The notes under the pieces were generated by a model, which did not search any database, was not told the origin of the DNA, and was given only the letters and a program-made list of their open reading frames with translations. From NCBI GenBank assembly GCA_012026925.1, contig VEPJ01000150.1:1-62156 (forward strand): a stretch of DNA of 62,156 nt. Reading direction: 5' to 3'. This DNA comes from Gammaproteobacteria bacterium (GTDB taxonomy: Bacteria; Pseudomonadota; Gammaproteobacteria; Steroidobacterales; Steroidobacteraceae). A program made the translations under genes and the position numbers. This document shows, in pieces, positions 37,900-46,070 of this stretch; positions within the stretch are counted from its first letter, which is position 1; the number at the start of each line of letters is the position of its first letter.

Positions 37900-39276
37900 A
37901 TGTTTACAGGATTGCGCTTCCCCGGGCTGGTGGCCCGCGGAGCGGGATTGCTGCTGCCCGCCGGTTTCGTCGCGTCACTGATGTTCGCAGCGCCCGCGTG
38001 GTCGCTGCCGAGTTTCGCGCAGCAGACCGGAGTCGGATGCGCCCAGTGCCACACGACCTCGTTCGGTCCCGCGCTGACGCAGTTCGGTCGAGAGTTCAAG
38101 CTGAACGGTTACACGCTGGGCGGCCAGCCGTCGATCCCGCTGGCGGCGATGGTCAACGCGAACTTCACCAGCACCAGCAAGGGCGTCCCGGATGGTGCGG
38201 CCGATCACTTCCGCGACAACAACAACTTTGCATTCAGCGAGATCAGCGGCTTCTTCGCCGGACGGATCTCCGACCACTTCGGTGGTCTCGCGCAGGTCAC
38301 CTACAGCGGCGTGGACCGGACCTCGTCCTGGGACAACCTCGACATGCGTTTCGTCGACAACTTGAAGGTCGGCGGCTCGAGCGTGCTGTGGGGCCTCACA
38401 CTCAACAACAACCCGACCATCCAGGACCTCTGGAACACCACGCCGGGCTGGGGCTTCCCCTACACCAGTTCCGACCTCGCCCCGACGCCCGCGGCGGCGC
38501 CGCTCATCGACGGCGGCATCGCACAGCAGGTGCTCGGGCTCACGGCCTACACGGAGATCGACGACTGGCTGTACCTCGAATTCGGTGGTTACCAGAACCT
38601 TTCGAACAGCCTGCTCGAGAACATCGGTCTGCCGGATGCGGCTACCATGGATCACGTGAAGGGATTCGCGCCGTACTGGCGCATCGGGTTGCAGCACGAG
38701 TTCGCGCCGCACTATGTCGCCGGCGGAATCTTCGGCATGTCGACGGATCTCTATCCGGGCAATGACCGGAGCGAGGGCACCAACCGGTACACGGACTTCG
38801 GCTATGACGCGACCTACCAGTTCGTGGACGGCGGACCGCACACGTGGACCGCACAGTTCACCTACATCCACGAAGACCAGAACCTCGATGCGAGCTACAA
38901 GCTCGGCGACTCGTCGGGCCGCAACAAGACGCTGAACGAGGTCAAGTTCAACGTGCACTACGCCTACGAGCAGACCTACGCGTTCGCGGCCGGCCTGTTC
39001 GGCGTTGGCGGCTCGCGCAATGCGCTGATGTACGCGCCCGATCCGGTGGACGGCAGTGCGAACGGGCGTCCAACCAGCCAGGGATACGTCCTGGAGGCCG
39101 ACTGGATTCCGTGGGGCAAGGTGACCTCACCGAACCAGCCCTGGATGAATGCGCGCATCGGGCTGCAGTACACGGGCTACGGCAAGTTCAACGGCAGCAG
39201 CAACAATTACGACGGCTTCGGCCGTTCCGCCAGCGACAACAACACGGTCTTCCTGTACCTCTGGCTCGCCATCTAG
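37900..39276 (+). CDS. Fused monoheme cytochrome c - outer membrane porin (Cyc2-like architecture)
   Basis: Signal peptide, then LPSFAQQTGVGCAQCHTTSFGPALTQFGREFKLNGYT (single CxxCH) followed by about 400 aa of beta-barrel-like alternating sequence; RBS GGGAG upstream of ATG 37900. Confidence 0.7.
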   Translation: MFTGLRFPGLVARGAGLLLPAGFVASLMFAAPAWSLPSFAQQTGVGCAQCHTTSFGPALTQFGREFKLNGYTLGGQPSIPLAAMVNANFTSTSKGVPDGAADHFRDNNNFAFSEISGFFAGRISDHFGGLAQVTYSGVDRTSSWDNLDMRFVDNLKVGGSSVLWGLTLNNNPTIQDLWNTTPGWGFPYTSSDLAPTPAAAPLIDGGIAQQVLGLTAYTEIDDWLYLEFGGYQNLSNSLLENIGLPDAATMDHVKGFAPYWRIGLQHEFAPHYVAGGIFGMSTDLYPGNDRSEGTNRYTDFGYDATYQFVDGGPHTWTAQFTYIHEDQNLDASYKLGDSSGRNKTLNEVKFNVHYAYEQTYAFAAGLFGVGGSRNALMYAPDPVDGSANGRPTSQGYVLEADWIPWGKVTSPNQPWMNARIGLQYTGYGKFNGSSNNYDGFGRSASDNNTVFLYLWLAI

Positions 39277-39348: not shown

Positions 39349-40893
39349 TCAGAATTCGTACTCGAGCATGAAACGCATGGTCGTGTCGGGCGTCGCGTCC
39401 GTCAGCCCGAACAGCAGGCCGAGTTCGTACTTGAACGCGCCATTTGCAGTGCGAAATTTGCCGTACATCGCCGGGCCGAGCTGCTGCTCGTGGTCGTTGA
39501 ACGACCCGAACTCGCCCCAGTCCCCGAGGCCGCCGTACATCTCGATGCCGGGCTCGAAGCGCTCCTCGAGGCGATAACGGTACTGCCAGCGGTACTCCAT
39601 CTCGAGGTCGGCGCCGCTCTCGAGTGCCTGTTCGAACAGCAGGTTGAGGCGGACCTCGTTGCGACCGAAATCCTTCTGGCCCAGGAGCCCGATCTCGATC
39701 GCGTCCGCGCCGTCGTCCTCGAGTGAATAGGCGTACTCCGCGAGCAACCCGAAGTCCGCCCAGTACTGGCCCTGTTCCGTGAGCTGGAAGATGTTCTCGG
39801 TCGCGACCTCGGTGGCCTCGAGGCTCTCGCCCGGCTCGCGCTCGTACTCGACGAGCAACTCGGTGAGCCAGCGCGAAGTGGGCGCGTACTCGAATTCGAG
39901 CTTGTAGGCCTGGCCGCCGTCGAGGGAACTCCGGCCATCGAAGTCGTAGTGGCCGCGCAGCTCGATGGCCTTCTCGCCCTGCTCGACGAGCGGCGAGTAC
40001 ACGACGTGATCGGCACGCGCCGGCGGCGCATGGCCTGCCACCGCGATTGCCAGGACGGCGGCCGGGACCGCCGCGGCTCGCCGGAGCCTCACCGGTCGGC
40101 CATTGACCACGCGCGACAGCGCGACGATGCCGACCAGCGTCGCGGCGAATGCCAGGAGCTGCATGGCGCTCGGACGGTCGTCGTAACCGACGAGGACGTG
40201 CAGGAGCTGGCCGACGATGCCGTGCTCGGGAAGGACGGACGACGCGTCCCAGACCGGATCGACCAGCGCCGGAAGGATCCCGGCCTGGACGAGATAGCGG
40301 GTCCCCTGTGCCGCCATCCCAGCGGCCAGCAGCACGATGAGCCAGTTCGTGACGGAGAAGAGGTGCCGGGTTGGTATGCGCACGAGACCGAAGTACATCA
40401 GTGCCCCGGCGGCAACCCCTGCAGCCAGCCCGAGCGCCGAACCGCCGAGCAGCGCACCCGAGCCCGCTCCGCCCGCGGCGATGCCGTAAAGGAACAGCAC
40501 GACCTCCGATCCCTCGCGCAGCACGGCGAGCCCGACGACGAGTGCCAGCACGTGCAGGGGGCGCGTCCCGGCGCTCACGTCGTGGCCGACCGCGCGCATC
40601 TCGCGAGCGATGTCCGCGCCGTGCTTCTGCATCCACACGCTGTGCCACGCCAGCATGAGGACCGCGCCGAACAGGATCGACGCATTCATCACTTCCTGGC
40701 CGACGCCCTCGAGCGCCGCTGCGATCGATTCGGCCCCGAGCGCGACGAGGAGGGCGCCCGCGATGCCCGCAAGCAGGCCGGCGAGCACCCAGCGGCGACT
40801 CGAGGCGATCCCGCGCGACGCGGCGAGCACGATGCCGATCACGAGTGCGGCTTCGAGGACTTCACGAAAGACGATGACGGCCGAGCCGAGCAT
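39349..40893 (-). CDS. FTR1 family iron permease with C-terminal beta-barrel-like extension
   Basis: Residues ~1-267 FTR1 with REVLEA and REGSE (RExxE); then RLRRAAAVPAAVLAIAVAGHAPPARA|DHV signal-like segment and ~240 aa beta-rich domain ending MRFMLEYEF. Confidence 0.82.
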   Translation of the reverse strand: MLGSAVIVFREVLEAALVIGIVLAASRGIASSRRWVLAGLLAGIAGALLVALGAESIAAALEGVGQEVMNASILFGAVLMLAWHSVWMQKHGADIAREMRAVGHDVSAGTRPLHVLALVVGLAVLREGSEVVLFLYGIAAGGAGSGALLGGSALGLAAGVAAGALMYFGLVRIPTRHLFSVTNWLIVLLAAGMAAQGTRYLVQAGILPALVDPVWDASSVLPEHGIVGQLLHVLVGYDDRPSAMQLLAFAATLVGIVALSRVVNGRPVRLRRAAAVPAAVLAIAVAGHAPPARADHVVYSPLVEQGEKAIELRGHYDFDGRSSLDGGQAYKLEFEYAPTSRWLTELLVEYEREPGESLEATEVATENIFQLTEQGQYWADFGLLAEYAYSLEDDGADAIEIGLLGQKDFGRNEVRLNLLFEQALESGADLEMEYRWQYRYRLEERFEPGIEMYGGLGDWGEFGSFNDHEQQLGPAMYGKFRTANGAFKYELGLLFGLTDATPDTTMRFMLEYEF

Positions 40894-40896
40894 GGC

Positions 40897-41241
40897 TCAC
40901 TCCGCGATCAGCCAGCCGCGGGCGGTGGCCATGTTGAATTCGCCGAAGAACTCGTATTTGCCGGGCTTCAGGGGCCCGACGAAGACGACGATGCGGCCGT
41001 TGCCGGGGACGACCTTCTCCCGGTTGAGCTGGTAGCTCTCGAACTCTTCCGGGGTCGGATCCTTGTTCTCGATGACCAGGCGGATCTTCTGGCCGGCAGG
41101 CACCCTGAGTTCCGCCGGCGTGAAGCGGTGATCCTGGATCACCAGTGAGAATTCCGGCTCGCCGGCCTGGGCAGGGGCTGCGAGGAGGCACCACAAGGTC
41201 GTGGCTGCCGTAAGAGCGGTGCAGGGCTTGGGCAGTTGCAT
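40897..41241 (-). CDS. Exported cupredoxin-domain protein
   Basis: Signal peptide; PEFSLVIQDHRFTPAELRVPAGQKIRLVIENKDPTPEEFESYQLNREKVVPGNGRIVVFVGPLKPGKYEFFGEF typical of FTR1-associated cupredoxins; 3 bp upstream of FTR1. GTG 41253 is an alternative start. Confidence 0.85.
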   Translation of the reverse strand: MQLPKPCTALTAATTLWCLLAAPAQAGEPEFSLVIQDHRFTPAELRVPAGQKIRLVIENKDPTPEEFESYQLNREKVVPGNGRIVVFVGPLKPGKYEFFGEFNMATARGWLIAE

Positions 41242-41281
41242 GGGCTCGTCCACCTGTTAAGGTGGTCCGAATATATACGAA

Positions 41282-41296
41282 TGAGAACTATTCGCA
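41282..41296. promoter_or_regulatory. Candidate Fur box within the promoter of the cupredoxin-FTR1 operon
   Basis: TGAGAACTATTCGCA matches 7-1-7 consensus TGATAATnATTATCA at 11 of 14 positions; minus strand reads TTGCGA-N16-TATATT (-35/-10-like) across it. Confidence 0.5.
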
Positions 41297-41354: not shown

Positions 41355-42185
41355 ATGAAGCATCGTGAACTGCAATTCCCCGGTTGCCAGGAGGCGAGCC
41401 TCTTCGCGCAGGCCTGGCTGCCGGAAAGAGCGCCACGGGCAATCGTCGTGATCTCGCATGGACTTGGCGAGCACGGCGGACGTTATGCGCCGCTGGCGAG
41501 CCGGCTCGTCGAAAAGGGCTACGCCGTCTATGCGCTCGATCATCGCGGCCACGGTCGGTCGAGCGGGCCCCGGGCCAACATCGAGCGCTTCGACTACCTC
41601 GTCTCGGACCTCGGTGTGTGCATCGGGCGCGCGCAGCGCGAGCATCTCGACACGCCGGTCATCCTGCTCGGCCACAGCATGGGCGGAGCCGTCGCGCTCG
41701 CGTGTGCACTCAAGTACGAGAAGGTGCTGCGTGCGCTCGTGCTGTCGGCACCCGCGCTAGCGCCGGGCGATGCGGTGCCTGCATTCAAGCTGCTGGTCGT
41801 GAAGGCCCTGTCGGCGCTGTCGCCCAACACTGGCGCTCTCACGCTGCCTGCGACCGCGGTGAGCCGCGACCCGGCCGTGGTGCGCGCCTACGAATCGGAT
41901 CCGCTTGTGTTTCACGGCGCCATCCCGGCCCGCACGCTCGCGGAACTGCTGCAGGCCATGCAGCGGTTGCAGGCGAAGGTGCACGAGTTGCGACTGCCCG
42001 TGCTCATCCAGCACGGCACGGCGGATTCACTCGTCCCGCTCGCCGCCGCGCATCCCATCTACCAGCACCTCGGCCAGTCGAAGCGCCGGACGCTCATGGT
42101 CTACGAAGGCCTGTACCACGAGGTCTACAACGAGCCGGAGCGCGACCGGGTGATCGGCGACCTCGAGGCCTGGCTCGCGAGCTAG
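41355..42185 (+). CDS. Alpha/beta hydrolase, monoacylglycerol lipase-like
   Basis: VVISHGLGEHGGRYAPLASRLVEKGYAVYALDHRGHGRSSGPRANIERFDYLVSDL; GHSMGGAVAL nucleophile elbow. Confidence 0.9.
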   Translation: MKHRELQFPGCQEASLFAQAWLPERAPRAIVVISHGLGEHGGRYAPLASRLVEKGYAVYALDHRGHGRSSGPRANIERFDYLVSDLGVCIGRAQREHLDTPVILLGHSMGGAVALACALKYEKVLRALVLSAPALAPGDAVPAFKLLVVKALSALSPNTGALTLPATAVSRDPAVVRAYESDPLVFHGAIPARTLAELLQAMQRLQAKVHELRLPVLIQHGTADSLVPLAAAHPIYQHLGQSKRRTLMVYEGLYHEVYNEPERDRVIGDLEAWLAS

Positions 42186-43147
42186 GGGCCGGACAGGAGC
42201 GCCTGCGTCTCCGCCTCGACCTTGCGGGCTCCGTCGTTCAGCAGGTAGTCCCGGAACGCAGCCGCCGCAGGCGGCAGCCAGCGCTCGGAGTGATGCACGA
42301 CGTACCAGGTGCGGATGATCGGCGTGTGGTCCACGTCGAGCCTCACCAGCGCGCCCGTCTTGAGTTCCAGGAACAGCGTGTGTGCGGAGGTCAGGCTGAT
42401 GCCGAGCTGGCACATCACGGCGTGCTTCGCCATCTCGTTGCCGCTGACCGTGACGTGCTCGCGCGGCACGATGCGGTGCATCGTGAGAAACGTGTCGAGC
42501 ATCGCCCGCGTGCCGGATCCAGGCTCACGCTGCACGACGCTCTCGTGGCGCAGCTCGATGGGCGCAATGCCGCGCTCGCCGACGAGCGGGTGTCCCGGCC
42601 ACGCAATGATCACGTGCGGGTTGGTCGCGAAGGGTTCACGCGTCAGCGGATCGTCCTGGGCGGCGGCCCGTCCCACGGCCGATTCCGGTCCACGACCCAT
42701 CAGCGCGAGATCCACCTCGCCGTCTAGCACGCGTCGTGCGAGTTCGGCCCGCGTCGAGACCGCCATGTGCACGGCGATGCCTGGCGCGAGCCTGCGGAAT
42801 TCGGCGAGCAGCGGAGGGAGGATGTGGGTGCCCGTCGCGAGGATGCCGAGGTGCAGCGTGCCGTCGTCGCGCTTGCGGAGCGCGTCCATCTCCTTCGCGA
42901 GTACGCCGAGGCGCGTGTGTACGTCGATCGCCGCGGCAAGTGCGCGCTCGCCGGCCGCGGTCAGCCGCAGTCGCCGTCCGATCCGATCGAAGGCCGGGGC
43001 CCCGAGTACCTTCTCAAGTTGTTGAATCTGCTGTGTTATTGCGGGCCCCGTCATGAACAGCCGCTGCGAGGCGCGGGCCATCGTGCCGGTCTCTGCAACA
43101 GCCTTCAGGACCTCGAGCTGTCGCAGGCTCAGGTGTCTCGGATCCAT
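42182..43147 (-). CDS. cbbR: LysR family transcriptional regulator, probable CbbR
   Basis: LSLRQLEVLKAVAETGTMARASQRLFMTGPAITQQIQQLEKVLGAPAFDRIGRRLRLT; divergent to cbbL. Confidence 0.87.
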   Translation of the reverse strand: MDPRHLSLRQLEVLKAVAETGTMARASQRLFMTGPAITQQIQQLEKVLGAPAFDRIGRRLRLTAAGERALAAAIDVHTRLGVLAKEMDALRKRDDGTLHLGILATGTHILPPLLAEFRRLAPGIAVHMAVSTRAELARRVLDGEVDLALMGRGPESAVGRAAAQDDPLTREPFATNPHVIIAWPGHPLVGERGIAPIELRHESVVQREPGSGTRAMLDTFLTMHRIVPREHVTVSGNEMAKHAVMCQLGISLTSAHTLFLELKTGALVRLDVDHTPIIRTWYVVHHSERWLPPAAAAFRDYLLNDGARKVEAETQALLSGP

Positions 43148-43213
43148 AAGCGGAGCTTAGCAGGCAGGCAACAAATACTAAGTGTCAATTATCGATCGGG
43201 CCGCCTAAAGTGA

Positions 43214-44731
<1,518 letters not shown>

Positions 44732-44742
44732 GGAGAGCCGCA

Positions 44743-45129
44743 ATGCGCATCACACAGGGAACATTTTCCTACCTGCCCGACCTGACCGACGAGCAGATCG
44801 CGAAGCAGGTCGATTACGCGCTCTCGCAGGACTGGGCCGTGTCGCTCGAGTACACCGACGACCCGCATCCCCGCAACGTCTACTGGGAGATGTGGGGCCT
44901 GCCGATGTTCGACCTGAAGGACGCGGCGGGAGTGCTGGCCGAGCTGCGCGAGGCCCGCAAGGCGCACCCCGACTGCTACATCAAGCTGAACGCGTTCGAC
45001 TCGACGCGCGGCTTCGAGACGATGCGCCTCTCCTTCATCGTGCACCGTCCGAAGGAGGAGGCGCGCTACAAGCTGCGGCGCGAGGAGAGCGCCGGGCGGC
45101 TCGTCCGCTACACGCTCGAGCGCGCGTAG
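44743..45129 (+). CDS. cbbS: RuBisCO small subunit (red-type)
   Basis: [58 protein letters not shown]. Confidence 0.96.
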
Positions 45130-45173
45130 TCCGGCGCGGAAACACCTGCTCCGAATCACCGGGGACACGCGGG

Positions 45174-46070
45174 ATGGCTGGTTCCATCGACCTCAAGGCG
45201 CTGCTCGCCGAGTCGGGTGTCGCGGAAGTGCTCGACGAGCTCGATCGCGAGCTCGTCGGCCTCAAGCCCGTCAAGACGCGGATCCGCGAGATCGCCTCGC
45301 TGCTCGTGGTGGACAAGGCGCGGGCCGCGCTCGGCGTCGAGGGTGCGAAGCCGTCGCTGCACATGTGCTTCACCGGCAATCCGGGCACCGGCAAGACCAC
45401 GGTCGCCATGCGCATGGCGACGATCCTGCACCGGCTCGGCCACGTGCGTAAGGGACACCTCGTGGCCGTCACGCGCGACGACCTCGTCGGGCAGTACATC
45501 GGTCACACGGCGCCGAAGACCAAGGAAGTGCTGAAGCGCGCGATGGGCGGCGTGCTGTTCATCGACGAGGCGTACTACCTCTATCGCCCCGAGAACGAGC
45601 GCGACTACGGCCAGGAGGCCATCGAGATCCTGATGCAGGTGATGGAGAACCAGCGCGAGGACCTCGTCGTGATATTCGCGGGCTACAAGAGCCGCATGGA
45701 CACCTTCTTCCAGTCGAACCCCGGGCTCGGCTCGCGCGTCGCGCACCACATCGACTTCCCGGACTACACGGTGGACGAGCTCGAGGCGATCGCCGGGAAG
45801 ATGGTCGCCGCACTCGGGCTCACGCTGTCCGAGCCCGCCAGTCGCGCGCTGGCCGAATACCTGCGGCTCCGGCGCGAGCAGCCCAATTTTGCCAACGCCC
45901 GTTCGCTGCGCAACGCGCTCGCCCGCGCCAGGCTGCGGCAGGCGCGCCGCCTGCTCGAGGCCGGCACCGTCGATGCGGCCATGCTGACCACGATCGAGGC
46001 GGAGGACATCCGCGCGAGCCGCGTGTTCGACGCGGCCCGGGCGGCGGCCACAGAGGAGAATCCATGCTGA
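45174..46070 (+). CDS. cbbX: RuBisCO activase CbbX (AAA+)
   Basis: [73 protein letters not shown]. Confidence 0.96.

Follow-up and report, generated by a model that had tools for sequence, protein, structure and literature searches.

What does a gene make when one uninterrupted frame runs from an FTR1-type iron permease into a sequence resembling an outer-membrane barrel? This question was raised by a locus in a 62,156-nucleotide stretch of gammaproteobacterial DNA (contig VEPJ01000150.1; hereafter, the window). A first-pass annotation, made from the letters alone, had offered two answers: a polyprotein cut by signal peptidase, or overlapping translation units. The analysis described here suggests that the gene probably yields one translation product that is then divided, supplying both membranes with matching iron-uptake parts.

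One frame for a permease and a predicted barrel

Translation of the minus strand from 40893 to 39349 recovered the same single 514-amino-acid frame that the first-pass annotation had reported, with no interruption and no stop before the signal-like segment. The assignment of its first part to FTR1, with both RExxE motifs, also stood. Residues 1 to 258 matched Pfam FTR1 with an E value of 8e-29 (101.3 bits against a gathering cut-off of 25.3), and the Arg and Glu residues of both motifs, REVLE and REGSE, were invariant in an alignment of 18 fused proteins. A Pfam match above the gathering score, two RExxE motifs and seven modelled transmembrane helices place this part among the FTR1/OFeT iron permeases. 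By loop-charge count, the loops after TM1, TM3, TM5 and TM7 were net positive, which places the C terminus of the FTR1 domain in the cytoplasm. The signal-like segment would thus run from inside to outside, as signal peptides must. Coordinates of these features are given in Table 1.

Table 1. Positions, strand and basis of the features of the fused gene and its operon in the window
Feature	Positions	Strand	Basis
Fused gene: FTR1 permease, internal signal-peptide-like segment and predicted 12-stranded barrel (514 aa, stop included)	39349..40893	-	ORF, Pfam, AlphaFold models
FTR1 domain, residues 1-258, predicted N-out/C-in	40120..40893	-	Pfam; model with seven membrane helices; loop charges
First RExxE motif, REVLE, residues 10-14	40852..40866	-	Sequence; invariant in fused-protein alignment
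Second RExxE motif, REGSE, residues 126-130	40504..40518	-	Sequence; invariant in fused-protein alignment
Internal signal-peptide-like segment, residues 268-294	40012..40092	-	Arg-rich n-region, hydrophobic core, A-R-A motif
Predicted mature 12-stranded barrel, residues 295-514, Phe-ended, pI 4.2	39352..40011	-	AlphaFold model, PDB fold matches
FtrB-like cupredoxin gene, directly upstream of fused gene	40897..41253	-	Pfam PF13473; PDB 8VUK, E 8.5e-14
Fur-box-like site GCGAATAGTTCTCATTCGT, upstream of operon	41277..41295	-	Weak alone (11/19); position matches better sites in relatives

The C-terminal domain of about 240 residues had been described as resembling an outer-membrane barrel, and structure prediction bore this out. 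An AlphaFold model of residues 295 to 514, built from an alignment of 68 relatives, consisted of twelve strands and almost nothing besides (mean pLDDT, 97.7; pTM, 0.91). Its best fold matches in the PDB were FapF, NanC, KdgM and OmpG, all of which are outer-membrane channels, and the matches comprised both 12- and 14-stranded outer-membrane barrels. Most strands had one hydrophobic face and an opposite face rich in Glu and Arg. Across the family, net charge averaged -13 and Phe was the last residue in about 90% of members, as it is in the terminal FMLEYEF that the first pass had picked out in the window. By model and sequence, the domain has the closed form, even strand number, polar/nonpolar alternation and C-terminal aromatic residue of an outer-membrane beta-barrel. 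In the full-length AlphaFold model, the seven helices and the barrel were confidently predicted, and the linker was disordered, with pLDDT below 50 for residues 285 to 293.

The fold of this domain is shared with 12-stranded FapF, NanC and KdgM, but sequence identity to them was only 8 to 15%. No family or chain was matched when the barrel sequence was compared with Pfam, NCBIfam and PDB sequences, and a profile of the barrel family, unlike the fold comparison, gave no match to any PDB chain. The C-terminal domain belongs to a previously unnamed family of predicted outer-membrane barrels.

The linker and its candidate cleavage site

The junction noted in the first pass, VRLRRAAAVPAAVLAIAVAGHAPPARA followed by DHV, was present as described. 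It combines n-, h- and c-regions with a conserved -3/-1 site, the pattern of an internal signal peptide, and the predicted cut lies between residues 294 and 295 (bases 40012 and 40011). The linkers of 20 fused loci were aligned without gaps, right-anchored at a conserved VYSP, with one row shifted by one residue. Ala occupied the predicted -1 position in all 20 loci and was the only invariant linker residue; position -3 was Ala in 17, and Ser, Gly or Leu in the remaining three. Identity was at most 50% in every other linker column. An Arg-rich stretch and a hydrophobic core lay upstream of this site. The core was 70 to 95% hydrophobic, and Lys and Arg were absent from positions -22 to -11, counted from VYSP. 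Thirteen additional fused loci, read by eye, carried A/T/S-x-A at the equivalent position.

Linker identity was 35 to 46% in six of seven pairs of loci and 73% in the closest pair (L065/L066), with flanking domains at 59 to 83%. On these figures, linker sequence has diverged quickly, in the manner of signal peptides, around a preserved cut site. A home-made weight matrix, built on 11 E. coli signals, gave the segments higher average scores than controls but was poor at locating the cut; the cleavage-site argument was therefore based on the ungapped, right-anchored column counts.

The singular invariance of the -1 Ala and the lack of a usable internal start in many fused loci (see below) strongly favor the polyprotein that the first-pass annotation had offered as one of its two options. 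We consider it likely that signal peptidase I divides this polyprotein, giving a permease and a channel of the outer membrane that would together serve iron uptake regulated by Fur. The gene would yield one precursor, whose first seven helices would form an iron permease of the FTR1/EfeU type in the inner membrane and finish in the cytoplasm. An Arg-rich stretch comes next and, together with the hydrophobic segment after it, would serve as an internal Sec signal peptide, exporting the remainder, and signal peptidase I would cleave after Ala294, freeing a 25-kDa barrel for delivery to the outer membrane. Permease, outer-membrane channel and periplasmic iron-binding cupredoxin would then form a three-layer iron-uptake system under Fur. 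The unbroken frame, the predicted folds, the conserved cleavage site and the operon are what the analysis shows directly; from these we infer actual cleavage, insertion of the barrel into the outer membrane, transport of iron in particular, and production of the two parts at 1:1.

The closest precedent in kind appears to be FbcH of Bradyrhizobium japonicum, described by Thony-Meyer and colleagues (1991, PNAS 88:5001; cited in PMC6976685), in which one gene is reported to encode a cytochrome b/c1 precursor that is cut into two products. A multi-helix inner-membrane protein is reportedly followed there by an internal signal sequence and then by an exported protein. The proteins encoded by FbcH and by the fused gene are unrelated. 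Further, the downstream product of FbcH is an inner-membrane-anchored periplasmic cytochrome, whereas that of the fused gene is a predicted outer-membrane barrel, such that one precursor would serve both membranes. If this is true, the fusion is a natural polyprotein feeding two membranes, in which the signal peptidase site is kept while the linker drifts, and it opens to direct testing both internal signal sequences and the way a barrel is sorted from the precursor of a membrane protein. No description of the fusion, or of a barrel partner for FTR1, was found in the open-licence literature, a scope that makes this weak evidence.

The cupredoxin operon and its candidate cargo

The first-pass annotation had overlooked the cupredoxin gene upstream of the fused gene and a second fused copy in the genome, and had not recognized the C-terminal domain as a widespread family that is normally encoded by a separate gene. 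The cupredoxin gene stops 3 bases ahead of the FTR1 ATG and encodes its own signal peptide; of its two candidate starts, the ATG at 41241, closely preceded by AGGTGG, is more probable than the GTG at 41253. Among census rows, a cupredoxin was immediately upstream in 21 of 21 fused and 73 of 74 split loci.

The cupredoxin of the window is homologous to Brucella FtrB (8VUK). In the FtrB structure, E84, E86, E93 and residue 119 bind an Fe2+ mimic; D118 was needed for copper binding, and D118 and H121 mutants both lost Fe2+ oxidation (PMC11966278). The iron ligands E84, E86 and E93 were kept in all 21 fused operons, and position 119 is Glu or Asp. At the copper positions, D118 was replaced by Gly in nearly all fused operons and H121 by Asn in most, the window having Gly and Asn. 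Because the iron-site residues are kept and D118 and H121 are replaced, an iron-binding role of the cupredoxin is supported, and copper-based Fe2+ oxidation is not.

A looser comparative scan placed a Fur-like 19-mer ahead of the cupredoxin gene in 14 of the 20 fused operons (shuffle p ≤ 0.05); remote split clades mostly had none. A strict Fur consensus with three mismatches allowed gave no match in the window. Given the FtrB-like iron residues and the Fur-like sites, the operon is read as a system for iron uptake induced by iron starvation, which would proceed through an outer-membrane barrel, a periplasmic cupredoxin and inner-membrane FTR1, its cargo and direction both being presumed.

A variant of the cleaved-polyprotein reading, whose probability overlaps that of the iron version, is that the outer-membrane barrel carries copper or another small solute. 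Its 12-stranded PDB relatives FapF, NanC and KdgM carry diverse cargo, and in three loci (L125, L126 and L127) a barrel gene lies directly after the cupredoxin with no FTR1 nearby, an arrangement in which the two products may cooperate without the permease. However, the retention of the FtrB iron ligands with loss of the copper ligand D118, the Fur-like sites and the tight linkage to FTR1 all point toward iron, and we regard a different cargo as rather unlikely. The converse arrangement, a cupredoxin and FTR1 lacking an adjacent barrel gene, was observed in L128 and L129, as well as in L108, L112 and L114.

The operon resembles FtrABCD of Bordetella and Brucella in containing an FTR1 permease (as FtrC) and a Cup-II cupredoxin (as FtrB), but differs in the added barrel and in the replacement of the FtrB copper ligands. 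Among neighbors in the window and those of 15 longer loci, part of which were searched against Pfam, neither FtrA nor FtrD was recognized. With these two genes unrecognized in its surroundings and no copper ligands in its cupredoxin, the operon falls outside FtrABCD as defined. With EfeUOB it shares a seven-helix permease of the EfeU type, but the NCBIfam EfeU model aligned to residues 6 to 258 at 140.1 bits, below the curated cut-off of 255 bits, and no EfeO or EfeB was recognized near the operon.

FTR1-type bacterial iron systems have been described with inner-membrane and periplasmic parts, and no assignment of the step by which their iron crosses the outer membrane was found in the open-licence literature. 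The operon offers a candidate for this step, namely, a conserved unnamed barrel of twelve predicted strands that travels with cupredoxin and FTR1. The broadest form of the proposal is that a natural polyprotein, found in two classes and having switched between the fused and separate states more than once, is split by signal peptidase into a permease and its own outer-membrane channel, and that this new-family barrel is the dedicated ferrous iron entry for FTR1/cupredoxin systems; we hold the odds on that statement to be even.

Two neighbors of the operon were also recorded. The convergent gene at 37903-39276 on the plus strand encodes a protein of about 457 residues that carries one CAQCH heme-c motif close to the N terminus, followed by barrel-like sequence. 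This protein matched no Pfam family, its gene is absent from the equivalent place in the relative L014, and its layout is reminiscent of cytochrome-porin fusions such as Cyc2. On the other side of the iron operon, and near it, is a carbon-fixation cluster (42182-46070) containing a LysR regulator, a RuBisCO large subunit identified by Pfam, a small-subunit-like frame and a CbbX/CbbQ-like AAA ATPase.

Fused and split forms across genomes

Both the fusion and its split counterparts, for which the first pass had proposed a search, were found in other genomes. Distinct fused loci numbered 33 in two classes of the phylum, 20 from searches up to class level and 13 from a further search; the first census comprised 21 rows because one row was a second record of the same gene. 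Fusion was seen not only in the family of the window but also in several further families of that class and in families of a second class. Genomes with the split form include Alteromonas, Colwellia, Halothiobacillus and Guyparkeria; there the barrel gene directly follows FTR1 and has its own start, often an ATGA overlapping the FTR1 stop, as well as a signal peptide. The barrel is thus usually a separate gene, in an operon of cupredoxin, FTR1 and barrel.

Separate initiation in these split relatives raises the second option of the first-pass annotation, that an internal start (the GTG at 40092 or similar) makes the barrel precursor separately and the continuity of the frame is incidental. That GTG is indeed in frame, beginning codon V268, and in-frame GTGs of the window would leave signal peptides of 27 or 33 residues. 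An in-frame ATG able to start a separate barrel is also retained in L003, L004, L005, L063, L097, L102 and L107. However, the window's candidate starts have no Shine-Dalgarno match, as had been noted for base 40092, and 9 of the 20 aligned fused loci (L002, L064, L065, L066, L067, L098, L099, L100 and L104) were read as having no in-frame ATG, GTG or TTG outside TM7 that leaves a charged n-region. In L064 and L100, such codons are wholly absent from the linker. Termination-reinitiation coupling is excluded because no stop is present. With usable internal starts missing from many fused loci, overlapping translation units are disfavored and appear unlikely to explain the fusion, although dual production may occur in fused species that retain an in-frame ATG.

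A continuous frame, together with the frequent cooperation of fused domains, would also fit an uncleaved two-domain protein with the barrel tied to the permease via an eighth helix. The distance from inner to outer membrane usually exceeds about 77 Å. In the model, however, the hydrophobic helix ends at residue 286 and strand 1 begins at residue 308, leaving about 22 residues that span at most ~77 Å when extended; the linker is thus too short to tether an outer-membrane barrel to an inner-membrane permease. The restriction of linker invariance to the cleavage-site Ala likewise argues against this arrangement, which we consider very improbable. Finally, although the host genome is a fragmented draft that is 72% complete, an assembly or sequencing artefact in which a missed stop or frameshift joined two genes can be dismissed because the 33 distinct fused loci lie in two classes and come from many independent assemblies, and the host genome itself holds a second copy.

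This second fused copy (L002; G000:C219:2935-4185) is 72% identical to the first and truncated by the end of its contig. It has its own cupredoxin and lacks a usable internal start. It may be either a paralogue or sequence from a contaminating relative, the contamination estimate being 3.6%.

In a concatenated tree, the fused rows did not form one clade, and the hypothesis that all fusions share one origin was rejected (AU p 8e-6). Well-supported branches force at least two changes between forms, each of which may have been a gain or a loss, and in one family a fused row and a split row were sisters. Three candidates for additional fusions (L113, L115 and L121) were found on ORF check to have stops between the two parts and were counted as split. 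An in-frame stop was also observed within the barrel gene itself in both L121 (G547) copies, as TAG, and in L085 (G343), as TGA, which may reflect a pseudogene or recoding.
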